Shown here one piece after another: positions 1,436 through 10,689 of a stretch of DNA of 33,778 bases (positions are counted from its first letter, which is position 1; every line of letters starts with the position of its first letter). The translations under genes were made by a program, and so were the position numbers. Source of the DNA: Gammaproteobacteria bacterium. GTDB lineage: Bacteria; Pseudomonadota; Gammaproteobacteria; Xanthomonadales; Wenzhouxiangellaceae. The DNA lies in assembly GCA_018819105.1 (NCBI GenBank), contig JAHJQV010000054.1:1-33778 (forward strand), written 5' to 3'. Under the pieces are notes generated by a model. That model was not told the origin of the DNA. It ran no database searches and saw only the letters and a list, made by a program, of their open reading frames with translations.

Positions 1436-1660
1436 CAACGCCGGTCGCGGTGCATCGCAGCATGACAGTTGCATGACATTTGCGGCAATCGTTGGACAAT
1501 GGGGCACAACTTGACGTATGATTCGTAAGTTGAATGGCACGAGTCTGGCGTTAACGATCGGACATCACGTCCAGAGATTGAGTTCCGGCTTTGGGTCAGG
1601 GCTTAAGAAACATTTTGCATTTCGGGCGTAACATCTTGTATTATGAGAGGTAACAGAACA

Positions 1661-2497
1661 ATGAGCACCTTAGCAATGAATTCACTGATGAAGATCACCG
1701 GTCGTGCGGCCCTGATTGGTGGCCTGGCCATCGCGCTGGGCACCGGTTCAGCCGTGGCCTGTTCGCTGCAAAACTGGTCCGCCACCAGCGGCGGCATTTT
1801 CGCCAGCCAGCCGGACGGCACCGGTGGCGATCCAGGCGGTTCACCCGCATCTACACGCTATGCCGGTCTGTGCGGCAGCACTGCACCAGCAGGCGCGGTA
1901 AGCTTTGTGCAGGACAATCGCCCGGGTGGCATTGATCGCATCATCGCTCGTTTCTACGTGCTCAACGGCGGTGCCACCAATGCCGTGGTTTACCGTGGCA
2001 ACAACTCTGGCGGTGGCGAACTGTTCAACGTGACCCTCAACGGCGGCAACGCGACATTCAATGCGGGTGCAGCGTCTGCTTCAGCAGCCACCCAGACGGG
2101 CTGGAACTCCATCGAAATCGATTGGGACAGTGCTGGCGGAACCGGCAACCTGATCGTTAACGGCGGTGCGCCGGTAGCGCTGAGCGGTGCTGTGGCAGCC
2201 GGCGCGCTGGCCAACGTTCAGCTTGGCAACGTCAACGGTGCGTCCGGTGGCAGCTTGTCATTCGATGGCTATGAAGCTCATCTGAGCACTCCAGTGGGTC
2301 GCATTTGTAACTGCAATGCCAATGGCAGTGCTGATGATGCAGTAAATGTTCAGGATATTATTGTACTGGTTGGTGAAGCAGGTGGTGGAGCCTTGGCTTC
2401 AGGAACACCTGATTGTAACGAAGATGGAAGCATTAACGTTCAGGATATCATTACTACAAGCAATATCGCTGGTGGTGCTGGTTCTTGCCTGCTTTAA
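1661..2497 (+). CDS. Secreted protein with C-terminal dockerin-like calcium module
   Basis: 278 aa with an N-terminal signal peptide (hydrophobic segment around residues 11-30, ending GTGSAVA). The middle (about 75-205) is rich in Gly, Asn and Thr and reads as a beta-sandwich, LamG-like domain, but I cannot name it. The C-terminal 65 residues carry two calcium-loop repeats, NANGSADDAVNVQDIIVLV and DCNEDGSINVQDIITTSN, each followed by a Gly-rich turn. This is the duplicated F-hand layout of type I dockerins. The ATG at 1661 has AGAGG 10 bp upstream; an in-frame ATG at 1643 would include that site. It is first of three co-directional genes (46-bp gap to the next), whose products carry cohesin-like domains, the natural partners of dockerins. 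The last ~170 bp are visibly AT-richer than the rest. Confidence 0.8.
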   Translation: MSTLAMNSLMKITGRAALIGGLAIALGTGSAVACSLQNWSATSGGIFASQPDGTGGDPGGSPASTRYAGLCGSTAPAGAVSFVQDNRPGGIDRIIARFYVLNGGATNAVVYRGNNSGGGELFNVTLNGGNATFNAGAASASAATQTGWNSIEIDWDSAGGTGNLIVNGGAPVALSGAVAAGALANVQLGNVNGASGGSLSFDGYEAHLSTPVGRICNCNANGSADDAVNVQDIIVLVGEAGGGALASGTPDCNEDGSINVQDIITTSNIAGGAGSCLL

Positions 2498-2543
2498 TGC
2501 ATTAACACCAATCAATATTCACAATCATCTCGAGGACTAGACA

Positions 2544-3008
2544 ATGAACAAAATAATCAGCATTTTTATGTTATTGGCGATTGTTAGCGGAACGGTCTCT
2601 GCCCAGCAGTTCAGCAAAGAAGCCGTTGAAGCAGCGCCTTCAGCTGGTGACCTTTGGGTGCAGAATGGCAAAGGCGGCTATGCGGTTGAGTTTGTCAACG
2701 GTGGCGAAATTGCCGGCTTCCAGTTCGATCTGCACGACAAAAGCATCAATGCCGACAACTACAGCTGTGGTGCCGGCATGGACGCACACTTCCAGGTGGC
2801 CTGCACCCTGCACGCTGAAAAAGGTTTCCTGCGCGTGATCGTGTTCTCCATGGACAATGCCATGGTGCCGGATTCCACCGTGGTTGCCATCAACAGCAAC
2901 GGTGGCGGCAGCAAATACAGCGCCCGCGCCGCAGCGCCGTCGCTCAAAGGCGTGATTTTTTCCGACAACCAGGGAAGGAACATCACCTCCAGCCATCTTG
3001 GCAAATAA
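2544..3008 (+). CDS. Small secreted cohesin-like protein
   Basis: 154 aa with a clear signal peptide (MNKIISIFMLLAIVSGTVSA, cleavage near residue 20-21). The rest is one compact domain containing GEIAGFQFDL, then a Cys pair (SCGAGMDAHFQVAC) and GFLRVIVFSM. The GFQFDL strand and the following spacing match the first domain of the next gene (VGGFQFDLTYDP, CG...SC, GTVRTLIADF) and recall the cohesin signature strand. The two proteins therefore look like paralogues of a cohesin-like fold. There is no membrane anchor, so it would be released or bound to a partner. Shine-Dalgarno GAGGA sits 8 bp before the ATG. It lies between the dockerin-like gene and the anchored gene, 39 bp upstream of the latter. 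Function is inferred from fold resemblance and context only. Confidence 0.7.
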   Translation: MNKIISIFMLLAIVSGTVSAQQFSKEAVEAAPSAGDLWVQNGKGGYAVEFVNGGEIAGFQFDLHDKSINADNYSCGAGMDAHFQVACTLHAEKGFLRVIVFSMDNAMVPDSTVVAINSNGGGSKYSARAAAPSLKGVIFSDNQGRNITSSHLGK

Positions 3009-3047
3009 ACGAATAACGTAATCAACCGTATCGAAAAGGAGTCTATT

Positions 3048-5021
3048 ATGATTTTGTCGAAAAAACCGCTGATCGCCCTGCTGGCGGGAGTGGGTATGTT
3101 GGCCACAGGCCAAGCTTTTGCTGACATTGCCATCACTGTGAATGGTGGTTCAGGCAACGTAGGCGGAACCGTTACCATTGATTTCGACTATGCTGCCCTG
3201 GATGCAGACGATGTCGGTGGTTTCCAGTTTGATCTGACCTACGACCCTGCTGCTCTCACACCCAGCAACATCGCTGATTGTGGCTTGAATCGTCCGGCTT
3301 CACACAACGCCAGTTGTACGGAACCGGGTGGCGCAGGCAATGGTACTGTGCGCACGCTGATCGCCGATTTCACTCCGCCTACCGATGAAATCACTCCTTT
3401 CAACATCGCAAACTTTGGTGAGTTGACCTTTACGATCAACCAGCCGGGCACGCATACATTGACCTTCACCAACGGCGTTGGTGGTGACATTACTGGTGCC
3501 AATGTGCCTATCACCGGTAACGATGCTTCCATCACTGGAGCCATCGTAGGCAATGCAGGCTTCGCCTCATCACCCGCTCCGGGCGCAACCATTGCCCTCG
3601 GTGAATCGGAAGTTGGCACTGTCAGTGGCCTTTCGCCACAGAACATCACCGTCAGCGAAATCGGTGACCAGCAACTGGATATAACGGCGATCACTTTTGC
3701 GGGTCCAGACGCTGCTGATTTCTCTACCACCGTGGCACCTTTCTCGATTGCAGATGGTGGTGCAGACGCTATCGTTGACGTCAGTTGTACACCGAGTTCG
3801 CGCGGCTTTCTGACTGCAACAGTAGAACTGACCAACAACTCAGTGAATGCACCGGCTCCGGTGTATGACCTGACCTGTGCCGGTCTCTCCCCCAATGTTG
3901 TTGTGCCAGCCGGCCCGGTTGCCATCAATGGTCTGACCATTGACCCGAACCCGCTGACAGGTACATTCGATGTTACCAATCCAGACGATGATTTTACCTC
4001 TGACGCTCTGAACGTAACCGCTGCGGCCGTGGGTGATGCGGAAATCACCGTAGCACCGGCTGGTCCGCTGACCATCGCCACCGCTGGCTCACAGACCTTT
4101 ACCGCTTCCTGTGACAACACTGCGGCAGGCAACTTTACCTCTACCATCACCATCACCTGGGACGATCCGGTATCCGGTGGCACGCTCAATGACACCATTG
4201 ATGTCAACTGTACCGTGATAGACGAAGTGGCCGAGTACGAATCCGTACCGCCCGCTGGCTCCACTCTGGACTTCGGTGCCGTACTGAATGGTGACACCTC
4301 TGCGCCGCTGGGTGTGGACATCGGTAACTCCAACACCGACGCCACCCCGAACGCTGATCTGACCATCTCAGCTGCCACCATCACCGGCCCGGATGCCGCA
4401 GTGTTTACTCTGCTGACCGACCCTACCGGTGACGTGATTCCTGCTGGTCAGGCTCCGGATGGCACCGACAACGCCGAAGTAACCTGTACCCCGACCGACG
4501 GCTTCAGCACCTTCACTGCCACGCTGACCATTTCATCCAACGATCCGGATGGTGACGCCACCTATCCGCTGACCTGCGATGGTGACAGCGATGCAGCACT
4601 GGTTTCTGATCCGGTTCCGGGTACGGTAAGCCTTGGCATCATTGGCCCGGGTGGTTCAGCGGATACCACCATCACGCTGACCAACACCGGCACCACCGAT
4701 GACATCTCGCTGGATTCATGCACCTTGACGGCCGATCCGGAAATCACCCTGGTCAGCCCGGTGGCCTTCCCGGTTGCCATTGCTCCGGGTGCCAGCACCG
4801 ACATCGTACTGAACTGCACCCCAGGTTCACCGGGTACCTTCACCGGTACGCTGGCCTGTGAGGCAAGCGATGTTCAGGGCACGCTGATCCCGCTGAACTA
4901 TGACCTGATCTGCTCAGGCCAGGCTGTCGAAGTACCGACCTTGTCACGCCTCGGTCTGCTGGCCATGATCATGGCGCTGATGGCAGTCGGCTTCATCGGC
5001 TTCCGTCTGCGTCAGAACTGA
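3048..5021 (+). CDS. Anchored surface protein: cohesin-like domain, four ASH/Ig-type repeats, IPTL-type CTERM
   Basis: 657 aa. Signal peptide residues 1-25 (ending TGQAFA). Residues about 26-165 form a cohesin-like domain with VGGFQFDLTYDPAALTPS. Four tandem beta-sandwich repeats follow, each ending in a paired-Cys motif: YDLTCAG (~277), DVNCTV (~388), YPLTCDG (~509) and YDLICSG (~621). Each is preceded by a CTP or CDN motif, as in choice-of-anchor/ASPM-SPD2-Hydin-type domains. The C-terminus (from 628) is VPTLSRLGLLAM, a hydrophobic helix, then FRLRQN. This is a variant of the IPTLSxWG anchor that family knowledge links to exosortase H sorting. Strong Shine-Dalgarno AAAGGAG lies 7 bp upstream. 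It is last in the operon, with a terminator 26 bp after the stop. Likely role: surface scaffold that could present the cohesin-like domain. Confidence 0.82.
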   Translation: MILSKKPLIALLAGVGMLATGQAFADIAITVNGGSGNVGGTVTIDFDYAALDADDVGGFQFDLTYDPAALTPSNIADCGLNRPASHNASCTEPGGAGNGTVRTLIADFTPPTDEITPFNIANFGELTFTINQPGTHTLTFTNGVGGDITGANVPITGNDASITGAIVGNAGFASSPAPGATIALGESEVGTVSGLSPQNITVSEIGDQQLDITAITFAGPDAADFSTTVAPFSIADGGADAIVDVSCTPSSRGFLTATVELTNNSVNAPAPVYDLTCAGLSPNVVVPAGPVAINGLTIDPNPLTGTFDVTNPDDDFTSDALNVTAAAVGDAEITVAPAGPLTIATAGSQTFTASCDNTAAGNFTSTITITWDDPVSGGTLNDTIDVNCTVIDEVAEYESVPPAGSTLDFGAVLNGDTSAPLGVDIGNSNTDATPNADLTISAATITGPDAAVFTLLTDPTGDVIPAGQAPDGTDNAEVTCTPTDGFSTFTATLTISSNDPDGDATYPLTCDGDSDAALVSDPVPGTVSLGIIGPGGSADTTITLTNTGTTDDISLDSCTLTADPEITLVSPVAFPVAIAPGASTDIVLNCTPGSPGTFTGTLACEASDVQGTLIPLNYDLICSGQAVEVPTLSRLGLLAMIMALMAVGFIGFRLRQN

Positions 5022-5046
5022 TACGGTTTCTGACCAATGAATACTG

Positions 5047-5071
5047 GCCGCCCCACTGGGGCGGCTTTTTT
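5047..5071 (+). terminator. Rho-independent terminator of the dockerin/cohesin operon
   Basis: Perfect 8-bp stem GCCGCCCC / GGGGCGGC with an ACT loop, followed by six T. It lies 26 bp after the stop codon of the anchored surface protein. Confidence 0.93.
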
Positions 5072-5162: not shown

Positions 5163-5280
5163 CAGGAGCGCCAGTCTCCTGCCTGGCTATGGTGTTTACG
5201 TAGGCCGGATAAGCGCAGCGCATCCGGCAGCTAACATGGCGCAGAACATTGCCGGATGCGCTGCGCTTTTCCGGCCTACG
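5163..5280 (+). repeat. REP pair (BIME-like) with degenerate GC module
   Basis: Two inverted REP units, GTAGGCCGGATAAGCG...GCATCCGGCA (5200-5229) and TGCCGGATGCGC...CCGGCCTAC (5250-5279), are separated by about 20 bp. To the left, 5163-5188 (AGGAGCGCCAGTCTCCTG) resembles a decayed copy of the GC module seen in the composite repeats at 246-420 and 8108-8279. The rest of the 5022-5412 gap shows only the upstream terminator and no gene. Confidence 0.8.
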
Positions 5281-5412: not shown

Positions 5413-5676
5413 ATGAAACCGCACCAGCGCATCCCTGTCCAGCGATCAGGCCGGCGTCCAGCACGTCTGTTCAGCGTCGTGCTGTGCACCGCATTGTTGT
5501 TGTTTGCACTGACCGCCGAGGCCATCACCCTGAAACAGGCGGCACGGCAGGTGGCCAGACAATACGACGGCAAGGTCGTCGCTGCCCGCACCATTGAGCA
5601 GAATGGCCGTCGCATTCATGTCATCCGCGTGGTGACCAAACAGGGCGTGGTGAAAACTGTGCGCATACCGGAGTAA
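5413..5676 (+). CDS. PepSY-like small periplasmic protein
   Basis: 87 aa. The N-terminus is basic with a hydrophobic segment (about residues 20-36, LFSVVLCTALLLFALTAEA), consistent with a signal peptide or membrane anchor. The remaining ~50 residues (ITLKQAARQVARQ, GKVVAARTIEQNG, YRV-like strand IHVIRVV, KTVRIPE) have the helix plus beta-hairpin pattern of PepSY domains, which inhibit proteases or act as periplasmic sensors. It ends 7 bp before a PhoP-type response regulator, so the three genes are probably co-transcribed and it may feed the sensor kinase a periplasmic signal. A TAGAAT hexamer at 5398-5403 may be its -10, very close to the ATG. Confidence 0.72.
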   Translation: MKPHQRIPVQRSGRRPARLFSVVLCTALLLFALTAEAITLKQAARQVARQYDGKVVAARTIEQNGRRIHVIRVVTKQGVVKTVRIPE

Positions 5677-5683
5677 GCCAGCC

Positions 5684-6370
5684 ATGCGCATCCTGGTGAT
5701 AGAAGATGACCTGCGGCTGCAAAAGCAGATTGCCGATCAGTTGCAGGCAGCCGGTTACGCGGTGGATGTCTGCGCCGACGGTGTCGAGGGTGACTACATG
5801 GCGCGTGAATATCCGGTGGATCTGGCCATTGTCGACCTTGGTCTGCCGGAGATGTCCGGGCTGGAAGTGATCCGCGCATTGCGTGCCGCGCAGAAAGATT
5901 ATCCGGTACTGATCCTGACCGCCCGCAGTGAGTGGCAGGAAAAGGTCGAAGGCCTTGAAGCCGGTGCCGACGACTATCTGACCAAACCCTTTCACATGCA
6001 GGAACTGCTGGCTCGCTTGCAGGCCCTGTTACGGCGCAGTGCCGGACACTCATCACCGGTGCTGCGGTTTGCTGACCTGCAGATCAATCTCAGCAGCCAG
6101 CTGGTGGAGTTGGCCGGTCAGCCGTTGTCTCTGACCAGCTTCGAATACAAGATGCTGGAATACTTCGTGCTGCATCCCCGCACCGTGGTCACCAAGGCGC
6201 AGTTGAATGAACACCTGTACAACGAGGACGCCGATCCCGACAGCAATGTGCTGGAGGTGGTGCTGGGCAGGTTGCGCCGCAAGATCGATCCGGATGGCTC
6301 GCGCAAACCCATTGAGACGCTGCGCGGACGTGGCTACCGCTTCAACCTTCTCGCCGAAAACAGTGCCTGA
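5684..6370 (+). CDS. OmpR/PhoP-family response regulator
   Basis: 228 aa. The N-terminal receiver domain has the acidic pair Asp8/Asp9, phosphoacceptor Asp51 (IVDLGLPEMSG), Thr79 (LILTARS) and Lys101 (GADDYLTKPF). The C-terminal winged helix (about 130-222) has LSLTSFEYKMLEYF, the recognition helix region DPDSNVLEVVLGRLRRKI and the wing RGRGYRF. It matches PhoP length and style, but orthology to enteric PhoP with Mg2+ sensing is not shown. It sits 7 bp after the PepSY-like gene and 55 bp before its cognate kinase. Confidence 0.92.
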   Translation: MRILVIEDDLRLQKQIADQLQAAGYAVDVCADGVEGDYMAREYPVDLAIVDLGLPEMSGLEVIRALRAAQKDYPVLILTARSEWQEKVEGLEAGADDYLTKPFHMQELLARLQALLRRSAGHSSPVLRFADLQINLSSQLVELAGQPLSLTSFEYKMLEYFVLHPRTVVTKAQLNEHLYNEDADPDSNVLEVVLGRLRRKIDPDGSRKPIETLRGRGYRFNLLAENSA

Positions 6371-6425
6371 CTGCAGTACGCAGCAACTGCGTCGCCAGTC
6401 GGTCATGCCTGTGCACTGAGCAGCC

Positions 6426-7793
6426 ATGACTGCACCCACCCATGCCGGCAACAAGACCTTCTCGATCCGCTTCCGGGTGCTGGTCACGGTCAGCCTGGTG
6501 CTGATCATCGGTCTGGGGGGCATTGGCTGGTCGATTGATCGCATGTATGCGCAGTCCATTCAGGCCAGCATAAGCGAGCGCCTGACCTCAACGCTGAACC
6601 TGCTGGTATCCAGCATCGAGGAAACCGATGGCCGGCTTGCCATCAGTCAGCCACCGGACTCACGTCTGCAGCAACCGGGCAGCAATCTGACTGCCGGCAT
6701 GCGCACCGACGATGGCACCTGGTTGTCCGAATCGACGCTGCAGGTGCCGCCGGAACAGTGGCCGCATGGCCCGGTGGGCGAGCAGGTATTGCGCCGCATC
6801 GACAACTTCTTTGCCGACAGCAATCCACAGTATGTGATGAGCTGGGAACTCGGCTGGGAGACCGAGGACGGTGCCGTGCTGCCATTGCATTTGTGGGCCG
6901 CCGCCGACATCGACGAATTGCGCCAGCCACTGTCCACCTTCAGACGCGGCACCTGGCGCTGGCTGGCCATGGTTGGTGCCTTGCTGGTGCTGGTGCAGTT
7001 GCTCACCGGCTGGCTGGGCATGAAACCCATGCGTCGGGTCGAGCGCGAAATCCAGGCCATAGAAAAAGGCGAGAAGCAGTCGCTGGACGGAGTCTATCCG
7101 GCAGAACTGGCGGCACTGACCGACAACCTCAATGCCTTGCTGGCCAGTGAACAGATCGGCCAGCGTCAATACCGCAAGGCACTGGGCAATCTGGGGCATG
7201 CCATGAAAACACCGCTGGCCGTGCTCAGCAGCATTGTGCAGCAGCAGCACATCAGCGATGAGGATAGGGAGCAGGCCGGCAATGCCGTGCGTGAGCTGCA
7301 CAGCGTGATCCGCTTTCAGATCGAACGTGCCGCCTCGGCTGCGCGGCGCACCATGATACAGCCGGTGGCGGTGGCAGAGCAGGCGGAGCGGCTGTTGCGC
7401 AGCCTGCACAAGATTTATCCGCAGGTGGAGATCAGCGCCGAGATTGAACCTGAGAGCCGCTTCTTCGGTGAGCAGCGCGATCTGCTGGAAGTGCTGGGCA
7501 ACCTGCTGGAAAATGCCTGCAAATATGGCAGCGGAAAGGTGCTGTTACGCGTGCAGCAGCGTCGTGACGGCAAGCGCAAGCCGGGCCTGGTGATCAGCGT
7601 TGGCAACAGTGGCCAGCCGTTGACTGCGGAGCGATTCGAGAAGCTGCTGCAGCGCGGTCGGCGCGGTGATGAGCGCGTTGACGGCGATGGTCTGGGACTG
7701 GCGATCGTGGCCGAAATTGCCGAGGCCTATCAGGCCCGCTTGTACAGCCGCACCAGTTCGCTGGGCGGGCTCGAGGTGGTGTTGGAGTTTTAG
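6426..7793 (+). CDS. PhoQ-like sensor histidine kinase
   Basis: 455 aa inner-membrane kinase. The first membrane segment is around residues 18-38, followed by a periplasmic sensor of about 130 residues (40-170) and a second membrane segment around 178-197. A linker and dimerisation domain follow, with the H-box LGHAMKTPLAVL (His258 phosphoacceptor), then N-box NLLENACKYG and the glycine box GDGLGLAI in the C-terminal ATPase. The HAMKTPL form of the H-box is typical of PhoQ-type kinases. The periplasmic domain is acidic in places (ELGWETEDG), which could suit cation sensing, but that is inference. It follows the response regulator in the same operon. Confidence 0.9.
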   Translation: MTAPTHAGNKTFSIRFRVLVTVSLVLIIGLGGIGWSIDRMYAQSIQASISERLTSTLNLLVSSIEETDGRLAISQPPDSRLQQPGSNLTAGMRTDDGTWLSESTLQVPPEQWPHGPVGEQVLRRIDNFFADSNPQYVMSWELGWETEDGAVLPLHLWAAADIDELRQPLSTFRRGTWRWLAMVGALLVLVQLLTGWLGMKPMRRVEREIQAIEKGEKQSLDGVYPAELAALTDNLNALLASEQIGQRQYRKALGNLGHAMKTPLAVLSSIVQQQHISDEDREQAGNAVRELHSVIRFQIERAASAARRTMIQPVAVAEQAERLLRSLHKIYPQVEISAEIEPESRFFGEQRDLLEVLGNLLENACKYGSGKVLLRVQQRRDGKRKPGLVISVGNSGQPLTAERFEKLLQRGRRGDERVDGDGLGLAIVAEIAEAYQARLYSRTSSLGGLEVVLEF

Positions 7794-8330: not shown

Positions 8331-9827
8331 TTAATCCTCAACCGGCGGAGTTTTCTCATCGGTGTCTGAACTGCTGTCATCGTCGTCATCCACCAGCGCC
8401 TGCGTGCTGCGGATGCTCAGGCTTTTGCTGGTCTTGGCGCCGAGTTCCTTGAGCATTTCTGCCTGCCGCAGCAGGTTGCCGTTGCCATCCTTGAGCTTGT
8501 TCATGGCGGCATGCCAGGCGCGATCGGTCTGACCGATGCGTTCGCCGATTTCGTTGAGGTCATCGACAAAGTTGGCAAATTTGTCATACAGCTTGCCGCC
8601 GCGACTGGCGATTTTCTGCGCGTTGACGTTCTGGCGCCAGGCCTGCCACAGACTGCCGATGGTGCGCACCGTGGCCAGCAGGTTGGTCGGGCCGATCATG
8701 GCGACGCCATTTTCCATGGCGTAGTCCATCAGTTCCGGTTGCAGTTGTACCGCTTCGATCAGGGCGGCCTCGATGGGCACAAACATGAGCACGAAATCCG
8801 GCGTCTGCAGCTCTTCGGTGCGGGTGTAGCCTTTCTTTGCCAGACTGGCGATGTGCGCGCGCAACGACTGGCAGTGCTGCTGCAGGCTTTGGGCGCGCTG
8901 CTCTGGCGTGTCGGCGTTGAATGCGCGGGCGTAGTGTTCCAGCGACATCTTGGCATCGATGACGATGGCCTTGTCGTCGGGCAGGTAGATGACGGCATCC
9001 GGGCGCAGCATCTCACCCTTGTCGTTGCGCAGCGTTACCTGCAGCCGGAACTCGCTGTCGCGCTGCAGGCCGGCGCTTTGCAACAGACGCTCCAGCCGGG
9101 TTTCGCCAAGATTGCCCATCAGCTTGTTGCTGCCGCGCAATGCCTGGCTAAGCTGCGAGGCCTCCTCACCGAGGCTCTGGTTCATGGTCTTGAGGTCGGA
9201 CAGGGTCTGCAGCAACTGGCTGTGCTGGCTGATGCCGCGATGGCTCATTTCCTGCACCTGCTCGCGGAAATCCTTGAGCTGTGATTGCAGCGGATGAATC
9301 AGCCCGCTGATCTGCTCGTTGCTGGTGAGTTTGAAGGCGCGGGTCTTTTCCTCGAACACCTCGCCGGCGAGCCGCTTGAAGGTGTCGGCCAGACGCTGCT
9401 CGGCGGCCTCCAGCTTTTCGATCTGCTGTTGCAGATTGCGCTGATCGCTGCTGCTGGAGGCCTGCAGGCTGGCGTACTGTTCCCGCAGGCTGTTGTGCTG
9501 CACCTGCAACGCCTCCAGCTTTTCCTGCTGCTGCTGGTACTGCTGCTGCAGTTGCTGCTGCGATTCCCGCACATGCTGCAACTCGGTGCTGCTGGTCAGC
9601 TGTGCCCGTTCGGCCTGTTGCAGTTGCTGCTGCAGGACATGCTGTTTGCTCCGGCTGCGCCACCAACCCAGCCACCAGCCCAGCAGCAGAAACAGCAGCA
9701 CTAGCAATGTCAGTGCCAGCAGCAGCAGCGGCTGCTGGCTCAGCTGTTGCCACAGCTGCGCCATGTCAGTCATGTCAGTCATGTCAGTCATGTCAGTCAT
9801 GTCAGTCATGTCAGTCATGTCAGTCAT
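8331..9827 (-). CDS. rmuC: RmuC family protein (putative DNA recombination/nuclease)
   Basis: 498 aa from the first ATG. RmuC limits recombination at inverted repeats and has a PD-(D/E)xK-like core. Visible here are a membrane segment near the N-terminus (LLLLALTLLVLLFLLLGWW), a long Gln/Glu-rich coiled coil (about residues 60-170), then the RmuC domain with LGETRLERLL, RPDAVIYLP and VIDAKMSLEHY (candidate Asp/Lys catalytic residues), VPIEAALIEA and GPTNLLATVRTI. The N-terminus is seven MTD repeats before MAQLW, giving eight in-frame ATG codons at 9-bp steps from 9827 to 9764. No Shine-Dalgarno picks one; the first ATG overlaps the mazG stop, so translational coupling is likely. The acidic tail ends in DDDDDSSSDTDEK. 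Confidence 0.9.
   Translation of the reverse strand: MTDMTDMTDMTDMTDMTDMTDMAQLWQQLSQQPLLLLALTLLVLLFLLLGWWLGWWRSRSKQHVLQQQLQQAERAQLTSSTELQHVRESQQQLQQQYQQQQEKLEALQVQHNSLREQYASLQASSSSDQRNLQQQIEKLEAAEQRLADTFKRLAGEVFEEKTRAFKLTSNEQISGLIHPLQSQLKDFREQVQEMSHRGISQHSQLLQTLSDLKTMNQSLGEEASQLSQALRGSNKLMGNLGETRLERLLQSAGLQRDSEFRLQVTLRNDKGEMLRPDAVIYLPDDKAIVIDAKMSLEHYARAFNADTPEQRAQSLQQHCQSLRAHIASLAKKGYTRTEELQTPDFVLMFVPIEAALIEAVQLQPELMDYAMENGVAMIGPTNLLATVRTIGSLWQAWRQNVNAQKIASRGGKLYDKFANFVDDLNEIGERIGQTDRAWHAAMNKLKDGNGNLLRQAEMLKELGAKTSKSLSIRSTQALVDDDDDSSSDTDEKTPPVED
9762..9827 (-). repeat. 9-bp tandem repeat at the mazG/rmuC junction
   Basis: Seven perfect copies of ATGACTGAC (minus strand), followed by the ATG of an eighth start. 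Each unit contains an rmuC-frame ATG and a mazG-frame TGA. Copy-number change keeps the frame, leaves MazG unchanged and only adds or removes Met-Thr-Asp units on RmuC. Confidence 0.97.
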
Positions 9828-10689
9828 GTTCTTGCGGCTTTGCTGCCGCCGACTGCTGTCGCTTGCACTGCTGCCATAAAGCTTCCATGGCGTCCAGGTC
9901 CAGCTGCTGCAGCGCTGTCTGTTGCTGTGTCGCCAACTGCTCCATGCCACGAAAGCGCTGTTCGAATTTGGCGTTGGCATGGCGCAGGGCGGCGGCGGCA
10001 TCAATGTCCAGCTTGCGCGCCAGGTTGACCAGCACAAACAGCACATCACCCAACTCGTCCTCGATGCGCGCGGGATCGCCGCCCTGGCGTGCCTCGGCCA
10101 GCTCTTCCAGTTCCTCGTCCAGCTTGCTCATGACGGCATCGGCATCGGGCCAGTCAAAGCCAGTGCGCGCGGCGCGTTTTTGCAGTTTCAGCGCCCGGCT
10201 CAGCTCCGGCAGGTTGCCGGGCACATCGTCGAGGATGGAGGTTTGACCGCGCTGCGCCCGTTCCTGCTGTTTCAACTGCTCCCAGTTCTCGGTCTGCCCG
10301 GCGGCGTCAAAGTCCGGTGCCGACTCGCCTGCCGGCGGGAACACATGCGGATGTCTGCGCACCAGCTTGTCGTTGATGGCGTTGCAGACATCGGTGAAAT
10401 CGAACCAGCGCTGTTCCGCGGCCAACTGGGCATGGAACACCACCTGCAGCAGCAGATCGCCAAGCTCGCCGGGCAGGGCCGGCCAGTCCTGCCGCTCGAT
10501 GACGTCGGCCACCTCATAGGCCTCCTCGATGGTGTAGGGGGCGATGCTGGCAAAGTTCTGCGCCAGGTCCCACGGACAGCCGCCATCGGGGTTGCGCAGC
10601 TGACGCATGATGGCGATCAGTTGCAGCAGCCCGTCGGCCTTGGCCTGGTCGTCTGCAGTCGCGGTTGGCAGGGGTGCTGATGCGCTCAT
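9820..10689 (-). CDS. mazG: Nucleoside triphosphate pyrophosphohydrolase MazG
   Basis: 289 aa. MazG hydrolyses NTPs and dNTPs to the monophosphate and pyrophosphate, a house-cleaning role that also affects (p)ppGpp levels. Both tandem MazG domains are seen: the N-terminal one with GGCPWDLAQ, TIEEAYEVADVI and ELGDLLLQVVFHA, and the C-terminal one with KLDEELEELAEA and IEDELGDVLFVLVNLA, which carries the acidic metal-binding residues. The central NWEQLKQQER and FDWPDADAV segments are typical. The start is well supported: AAAGGAGA lies just upstream of the ATG. Its stop overlaps the first rmuC ATG by ATGACTGA. The C-terminal tail (about 20 residues after the second domain) is Gln/Lys-rich. Confidence 0.96.
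   Translation of the reverse strand: MSASAPLPTATADDQAKADGLLQLIAIMRQLRNPDGGCPWDLAQNFASIAPYTIEEAYEVADVIERQDWPALPGELGDLLLQVVFHAQLAAEQRWFDFTDVCNAINDKLVRRHPHVFPPAGESAPDFDAAGQTENWEQLKQQERAQRGQTSILDDVPGNLPELSRALKLQKRAARTGFDWPDADAVMSKLDEELEELAEARQGGDPARIEDELGDVLFVLVNLARKLDIDAAAALRHANAKFEQRFRGMEQLATQQQTALQQLDLDAMEALWQQCKRQQSAAAKPQEHD

Follow-up and report, generated by a model that had tools for sequence, protein, structure and literature searches.

A candidate enzyme-free cohesin-dockerin display module tied to exosortase H in the Xanthomonadales

What would a dockerin and two cohesins do when they are encoded side by side in a bacterium, with no glycosidase among them? The question is raised by three consecutive genes, referred to here as genes 1, 2 and 3, on contig JAHJQV010000054.1 of a member of the Wenzhouxiangellaceae (order Xanthomonadales; assembly GCA_018819105.1), of which a stretch of 33,778 nucleotides, called the window throughout, was analyzed. 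An earlier note made from the letters alone had proposed that the first product, a dockerin protein, docks on an anchored cohesin encoded by the third gene, with the small cohesin of the second gene as competitor, cap or adaptor. Profile, structure and genome searches confirm the observation itself, in that the whole arrangement recurs, more than by chance, and they support the interpretation as essentially right at the level of sequence. The three genes probably specify a closed, enzyme-free surface cohesin-dockerin display module tied to exosortase H.

Domains of the three products

Gene 1 (1661..2497, on the plus strand like all features of the operon given below) is predicted from its open reading frame (ORF) and from profile and fold searches to encode a secreted-looking protein with a laminin-G-like domain and a C-terminal dockerin. 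As first proposed, the protein ends in two dockerin-type calcium loops, NGSADDAVNVQD (2321..2356) and DCNEDGSINVQD (2411..2446), which were placed from the sequence and from alignments of relatives and are both 12 residues long. Loop 1 looks degenerate in the window but reads NGDADGIVNVQD in the relative G002. The closing Asp of both loops is invariant in 63 aligned relatives (63 of 64 dockerin stretches, L176, which lacks a dockerin, being excluded), loop 1 being otherwise the more variable. When the profile of these 63 sequences was compared with solved structures, the best match was the CelS dockerin (E 1.2e-7), and the first 14 rows were cellulosomal enzymes or scaffoldins by name, with other EF-hand proteins lower; a six-sequence profile, with a best E of 0.031 and 11 of its 12 rows taken by dockerin or cellulosomal entries, was no more than suggestive. 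Pfam Dockerin_1 (PF00404) is matched by 41 of the 63 family members at E<=0.1. The two loops and the family homology together identify the C-terminus of gene 1 as a predicted dockerin.

The middle of gene 1 (1859..2284) is modeled by AlphaFold2 (AF2) as a jelly roll, with aligned residues ~67-208 and predicted local distance difference test (pLDDT) values of 56-91 by block over residues 71-200. The first 14 rows of a VIA alignment were laminin, neurexin and agrin laminin-G (LG) domains, among them laminin alpha-2 LG4-5 (Z 12.8, root-mean-square deviation (rmsd) 2.6, 138 residues aligned). No Pfam family scored this domain in a Pfam scan, and the window protein alone matched neither a Pfam nor an NCBIfam family; the assignment as laminin-G-like comes from the modeled LG jelly roll.

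Gene 3 (3048..5021) was resolved by Pfam, NCBIfam and tail scans into a cohesin, four choice-of-anchor-D repeats and an IPTL-class sorting tail. Its cohesin domain (3129..3536) lies over the cut-off of Pfam Cohesin (PF00963; 36.7 bits; residues 28-163, E 3e-8, 34.3 bits against a cut-off of 24.1), and a profile of 56 gene 3 relatives (from 63 large-gene cohesin domains) matched a solved scaffoldin cohesin with E 2.5e-13. The four immunoglobulin (Ig)/ASH-type repeats read earlier from the sequence were recovered as four stretches of choice_anch_D (NF012200, 93 bits, best 160-267), with PF15780 at 308-375 and PF22544 at 526-612, and they would form a stalk (3525..4883). The C-terminal tail EVPTLSRLGLLAMIMALMAVGFIGFRLRQN (4929..5018) is composed of VPTLSRLG, a hydrophobic stretch and Arg. 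On the tail, midcut_by_XrtH (NF033207) gave E 5.7e-5, a weak match below the cut-off (23.2 bits against 45). Among 48 orthologous tails, TIGR04174 matches 36 and midcut_by_XrtH 33 at E<=1. By eye, an IPTL-class tail ends 49 of 51 complete large genes of 300-999 amino acids (aa), from which the 48 scanned tails were obtained by subtracting the two without a tail and one near-copy; two genes of the size class outside these 51, >=1000 aa (L157, L173), show no such tail. The tail motif of the family and the exosortase H gene found in the genome place gene 3 in the predicted substrate class of that enzyme. A GreA row (E 0.27) in a single-sequence Protein Data Bank (PDB) search with gene 3 was discarded.

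Gene 2 (2544..3008) is predicted by HHalign and fold search to encode a free-standing cohesin-fold protein of 154 residues, secreted-looking by its signal-like N-terminus and without an anchor. The strand motif GFQFDL, said at the outset to be common to the second and third genes, is indeed present in both, and in a profile-profile comparison the gene 2 family matched the gene 3 cohesins with a probability score of 98.4 and E 8.8e-15. A cysteine pair, C-x(7-16)-C, is found in 35 of 36 small and 58 of 65 large cohesins. With the gene 2 model (weak, pLDDT 52), cohesin entries filled the first 15 rows of Foldseek (best E 5.6e-3) and the first 8 of VIA (Z 8.8 to 7.8), the latter led by 2jh2 (Z 8.8, rmsd 3.1, 106 aligned). 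A 36-sequence profile ranked the cohesin of Clostridium perfringens NagJ first (E 0.0013); only its first four rows were cohesins and most others antibody light chains, so this result is modest. A six-sequence profile returned one row, unrelated, and a match to a designed TALE entry (25 residues, E 3.8e-7) was discarded since no stretch passed on its own. Single-sequence PDB searches with the three window proteins gave nothing useful. Single sequences are thus too weak for genes 1 and 2, and it is with 63 and 36 relatives that the identities become convincing; from these profiles and models, the product of gene 2 is taken as a cohesin fold homologous to known cohesins.

Conservation of the gene row and co-divergence of its domains

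The gene 1 profile reached 28 of 98 genera of the order: 64 of 398 genomes carry at least 72 matches between them, a lower bound because at most six candidates per genome were scored. In a draw of 321 genomes of the class, which includes four of the order and the window's own genome among them, that genome was the only match. The gene 2 profile matched 26 of the 398 genomes, some weaker matches sitting in large cohesin genes. Five of the family's 42 other genomes had relatives in a search with the gene 2 sequence, and all five keep genes 1, 2 and 3 in this order, so that the triad which the earlier note wished to see in relatives is there. The flanks of all 72 gene 1 matches were read, and 67 were evaluable once five had been set aside (two with gene 1 running off the contig, three with less than 1.5 kb of downstream sequence). 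A cohesin-like gene lies directly downstream of gene 1 in 62 of the 67, and in three more the cohesin and the laminin-G-dockerin unit are in one polypeptide. The 62 loci divide into 36 with a small cohesin first and 26 classed as large-only, of which two (L147, L156) are fragments of fewer than 220 residues cut at a contig end, leaving 24 that remain large; the last gene is cut by a contig end in 10 of the 62. The small cohesin stands alone in three (L141, L167, L149): in L141 and L167 the next gene is large, with a hydrophobic tail and no cohesin detected in it, and in L149 the contig ends. Pfam Cohesin used without the iterated cohesin model matched 40 times, with hits in 36 of the 398 genomes; 22 of these matches (21 genomes) have a same-strand gene 1 no more than 3 kb upstream of them, a count that used 34 of the 72 gene 1 places and covered every place in genomes with a Pfam cohesin. 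By gene content, the module is an order-wide system, not confined to its source genome. The earlier note had called the packing of all parts into one operon unusual; the arrangement is conserved through the order and not peculiar to the source genome.

Exceptions to the common layout take several forms. The three fusion polypeptides (L158, L159 and L142, in genomes G021, G024 and G027) run to ~2000 residues; each carries a cohesin at its N-terminus and the laminin-G-dockerin unit further inside the chain, and could self-assemble; L158 also has five choice-of-anchor-D stretches. In G041, a laminin-G protein (L176:2923-3819) has no dockerin and no adjoining cohesin was found; it ends in its own hydrophobic, Arg-rich C-terminal tail, to which no NCBIfam name applies. 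This genome has exosortase H and no Pfam cohesin, and it is possible that plug and socket have here been naturally exchanged for a direct anchor. In L137 (G082) the dockerin is present next to a large ORF that is RHS-like by eye, and no cohesin scored better than E 0.14. A tandem duplicate of gene 3 behind gene 2 was seen at L022:3988-8121 (G009).

Dockerin distances correlate with those of the large-gene cohesin (r 0.63 in 33 triads, 0.57 in 25 dyads), and the correlation persists as a partial one given the laminin-G domain (0.54 in triads and 0.54 in dyads). Correlation of the dockerin with the laminin-G domain of the same protein is lower (r 0.39 in triads, 0.47 in dyads), and that of the laminin-G domain with the cohesin given the dockerin is -0.05 in dyads. 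Distances of the small cohesin also follow the dockerin (r 0.59); the partial correlations with the dockerin are 0.22 for the small cohesin given gene 3 and 0.34 for gene 3 given gene 2. Dockerin divergence tracks the cohesins better than it tracks the laminin-G domain of its own protein. A tree of 101 cohesin domains accounts for the small/large label with 2 changes, where shuffles take 29.6; it was built on few columns, and support falls below 80 for 44 of its 98 inner branches. The free cohesin therefore looks like an old clade apart from the anchored cohesins, a separate line and not a broken copy.

Genome inventory, exosortase H and surroundings of the operon

In the host genome (3.14 Mb, 98.7% complete), a family profile search found one strong dockerin, gene 1 itself (E 1e-27; next E 0.124), and a search with the gene 3 profile found two cohesins, gene 3 (E 3.2e-32) and gene 2 (E 0.0016). 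With one strong dockerin, two single-cohesin proteins and no multi-cohesin scaffoldin found, the genome lacks the inventory of a cellulosome. The proposal of a surface module without glycosidase agrees with this, the strong dockerin being on a laminin-G-like protein without any Pfam family. Weaker candidates were rejected: a second weak Pfam Cohesin match (E 0.395, C40) was not repeated by the gene 3 profile, two sub-cut-off Dockerin_1 matches were not repeated by the family profile, and the weak dockerin-profile match on C58 (E 0.124) is a different one from these two.

A search of the genome for exosortase H, called for by the earlier note, found one gene (G000:C34:26973-27437, 198.6 bits against a cut-off of 86), which sits on another contig than the operon. 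No exopolysaccharide cluster was seen by eye in 16 kb around it, the ORFs there not having been searched against families. Exosortase H occurs in 61 of 64 gene 1 carriers and 101 of 334 non-carriers (Fisher p 6e-24, not corrected for kinship), and the three carriers without it are genomes 77-85% complete. Since the enzyme is common without gene 1, its sorting system does not require the module.

As to the locus itself, the description as three secretory genes with Shine-Dalgarno (SD) sites and one terminator is borne out. Genes 1-3 are co-directional in the ORF listing of the window, with gaps of 46 and 39 bases, SD-like purine-rich stretches precede the starts (AGAGGT before ATG 1661, CGAGGA before 2544, AAAGGAG before 3048), and all three products have a hydrophobic, signal-like N-terminus, both kinds of signal being judged by eye. 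The mechanical ORF of gene 1 begins at 1643, inside its own SD-like stretch, and the ATG at 1661 behind AGAGGT was taken as the start. Upstream of gene 1, a sigma-70-like promoter candidate (1493..1522, TGGACA-18-TATGAT, 10/12 matches) was named solely from its consensus match, in a scan that found 5 such sites against 2.2 expected in shuffles. Downstream of gene 3 lies a terminator-like hairpin with a T-run (5046..5071; hairpin 5046-5066, 9 pairs, 8 G-C); since the scan of the window gave 4 terminator-like sites where shuffles lead one to expect 3.2, this hairpin is notable for its strength and position only. Beyond the terminator there is a 31-base inverted repeat of the repetitive extragenic palindrome (REP)-like kind (window 5199-5280, 97% complementary, 20 bases between the arms).

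The 5' neighbor (407-1435) resembles the citrulline hydrolase CtlX and dimethylargininase, with scores below cut-offs; four of the five close relatives also have a CtlX-like gene 5' of their operon, whereas G010 shows none within 6 kb. On the 3' side (5413-7793) lie a small gene (5413-5676) and a two-component pair of PhoP/PhoQ-like type that scores under the NCBIfam cut-offs, and 5/5 close relatives keep both. PhoQ-type sensors read divalent cations, which makes the pair suggestive next to a putatively calcium-dependent module. Further along, a long ORF on the minus strand (8331-10049) contains near its start a perfect 9-base tandem repeat (9762-9829, 7.6 copies), which translates there as repeated MTD.

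A putative surface display module and its rivals

In the mechanism considered most probable, all three products would be secreted, and exosortase H would sort gene 3 to the envelope via its IPTL-class tail, so that four Ig-like repeats would serve as a stalk that holds its N-terminal cohesin out from the surface. Gene 1 would dock on this cohesin via its calcium-loaded dockerin and display its laminin-G-like domain; the probable ligand of that domain is a glycan or a protein, belonging either to the matrix or to a neighboring cell. Gene 2, the anchorless second cohesin, would compete for the same dockerin, most likely as a pre-docking cap or escort or as a release factor; with no anchor and a cysteine pair common to the large cohesins, it is best seen as such a competitor or escort. 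Since 24 of the 62 loci go straight to a large cohesin gene, the free cohesin would be accessory, which suggests that it tunes docking rather than enabling it. It is conceivable, and put forward tentatively, that a dedicated free cohesin acting as cap, escort or decoy sets the timing and the extent to which the dockerin protein is displayed, which would make the module a regulated, enzyme-free counterpart of the cellulosome with a laminin-G-like adhesive payload. The computed support for display consists of domain identities, gene linkage, co-divergence, the exchange of dockerin for anchor in G041 and the co-occurrence with exosortase H; secretion, physical binding, surface location, the ligand and the role of gene 2 are inferred.

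Could these domains be true homologs that do not pair with each other, the dockerin serving as a calcium-stabilized C-terminal cap and the cohesins binding something else, for example a glycan? Cohesin folds do resemble carbohydrate-binding modules (the CBM3 rows in the gene 2 fold search), an excerpt of PMC5244752 calls the function of cohesins and dockerins outside cellulosomes unknown, and the pairing here is at present a matter of computation. Near-strict gene linkage, the fusions, the co-divergence of dockerin and cohesin and the one case in which the cohesin neighbor is absent where the dockerin is absent nevertheless make such independence unlikely. Lower still is the probability that gene 1 works with the free cohesin in a soluble, released complex and that gene 3 is a separate surface protein: the small cohesin comes right after gene 1 in 36 loci, three of them with no cohesin seen in a next large gene, and its distances track the dockerin too, but a large cohesin gene directly follows gene 1 in 24 loci, and gene 3 has the higher partial correlation. 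That the locus is a cellulosome, vestigial or minimal, for breaking down polysaccharides is hardly to be expected. Such a reading would account for the two domain families, which are the same, and for the jelly roll of gene 1, a fold also found, as the alginate lyase and inulinase rows show, in some lyases and glycosidases, but the one strong dockerin of the genome is on a protein without any Pfam family, and there is one cohesin per protein, with no multi-cohesin scaffoldin found.

Several points weigh against the display module. For individual proteins, the family assignments are weaker than for the families. The window's own gene 1 gave no PF00404 match in Pfam scans, and of the expectation that it would, the part that stands is the match of family members. 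Of the two cohesin-like domains that PF00963 had been expected to recognize, gene 3 was over the cut-off, but the gene 2 window protein matches no Pfam family in the same kind of scan (nor any NCBIfam family), and PF00963 is matched by 0/36 of its relatives at E<=0.1; even among the large-gene domains, taken singly, Pfam Cohesin recognizes only 28/56 at E<=0.1. The proposed IPTL-CTERM tail is present as VPTLSRLG and is matched in orthologs, but TIGR04174 gives the window's own tail no score at E<=1. The AF2 models of genes 2 and 1 are weak (mean pLDDT 52 and 51, from five sequences), and the dockerin part is left unfolded (block pLDDT 25-33). For gene 2, Z 8.8 is barely over the level (Z<8) that VIA flags as a possible common arrangement, CBM3-bearing rows come next at Z 7.7, and the gene 3 profile reached it at merely E 0.0016 in its own genome. 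G007, the other genome of the same genus (88% complete), shows neither gene 1 nor gene 2. The adjacency count relies on a cohesin model iterated on the same loci (102 of 1454 ORFs); with Pfam, 18 of the 40 cohesins lie away from gene 1 and 10 genomes have a Pfam cohesin and no gene 1, which indicates that cohesins of the order serve elsewhere too. The correlations use plain p-distances on short domains, a crude measure, and in triads the laminin-G domain still correlates with the cohesins given the dockerin (partial 0.36-0.37). Finally, 101 genomes have exosortase H without gene 1, and the association is uncorrected for phylogeny.

The kinds of part are known; what is new is the closed, exosortase-linked arrangement with a stand-alone cohesin. 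Clostridial cellulosomes have a sortase or SLH anchor, a multi-cohesin scaffoldin and dockerin enzymes. The putative module shares with their anchoring scaffoldin a type I-like dockerin with two calcium loops and a surface-sorted cohesin, but it has no enzyme and no multi-cohesin scaffoldin, and it would operate in a Gram-negative envelope with exosortase H. Non-cellulosomal cohesin and dockerin proteins of bacteria and archaea were reportedly described by Peer et al. in 2009. We know of no stand-alone cohesin described as encoded beside its anchored paralog, no search aimed at this having been made. The closest solved relatives of gene 2 are the cohesin-like modules of C. perfringens NagJ and other glycosidases (2jh2, 2o4e, 2ozn, 2w1n, 2vo8), likewise single cohesins outside a cellulosome; by their entry titles these are appended to glycosidases, whereas gene 2 is a stand-alone small protein. 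In anaerobic methanotrophic (ANME) archaea, according to excerpts, there are many cohesin and dockerin proteins with unassigned partners and a function called unknown (PMC5244752, PMC9012536). As far as those excerpts go, ANME and other non-cellulosomal proteins share with the present module the domains without cellulose degradation and the idea of surface attachment; the difference is that here one dockerin and two cohesins lie in a short gene row, conserved in the order, with an exosortase-type tail on one cohesin protein. PMC5244752 is also the one paper among the matches listed that mentions all of exosortase, cohesin and dockerin. IPTL-CTERM/exosortase H sorting (TIGR04174, TIGR04177, NF033207) is represented here by the class of tail seen in the gene 3 family and by the enzyme that the genome encodes. 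In the literature search almost nothing was found on exosortase H, one paper being relevant by title, which in excerpt concerns a Methylomirabilis S-layer protein with an IPTL-CTERM tail (PMC8671808); the PEP-CTERM/EpsH system appears in an excerpt of PMC1569441. No paper was found for Wenzhouxiangella with exosortase, and no description of the module among the matches listed, by title or start of abstract, most subscription journals being outside the search.

Altogether, two puzzles meet at this locus, namely the function of cohesins and dockerins outside cellulosomes, where both are widespread, and the sparse literature found on exosortase H. Because the set is closed, with one dockerin and two cohesins in the genome, the question of partners is reduced to two pairings, and deletion of exosortase H alone would show whether the tail matters. 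The module could also supply a new natural pair for surface display in Gram-negative bacteria.

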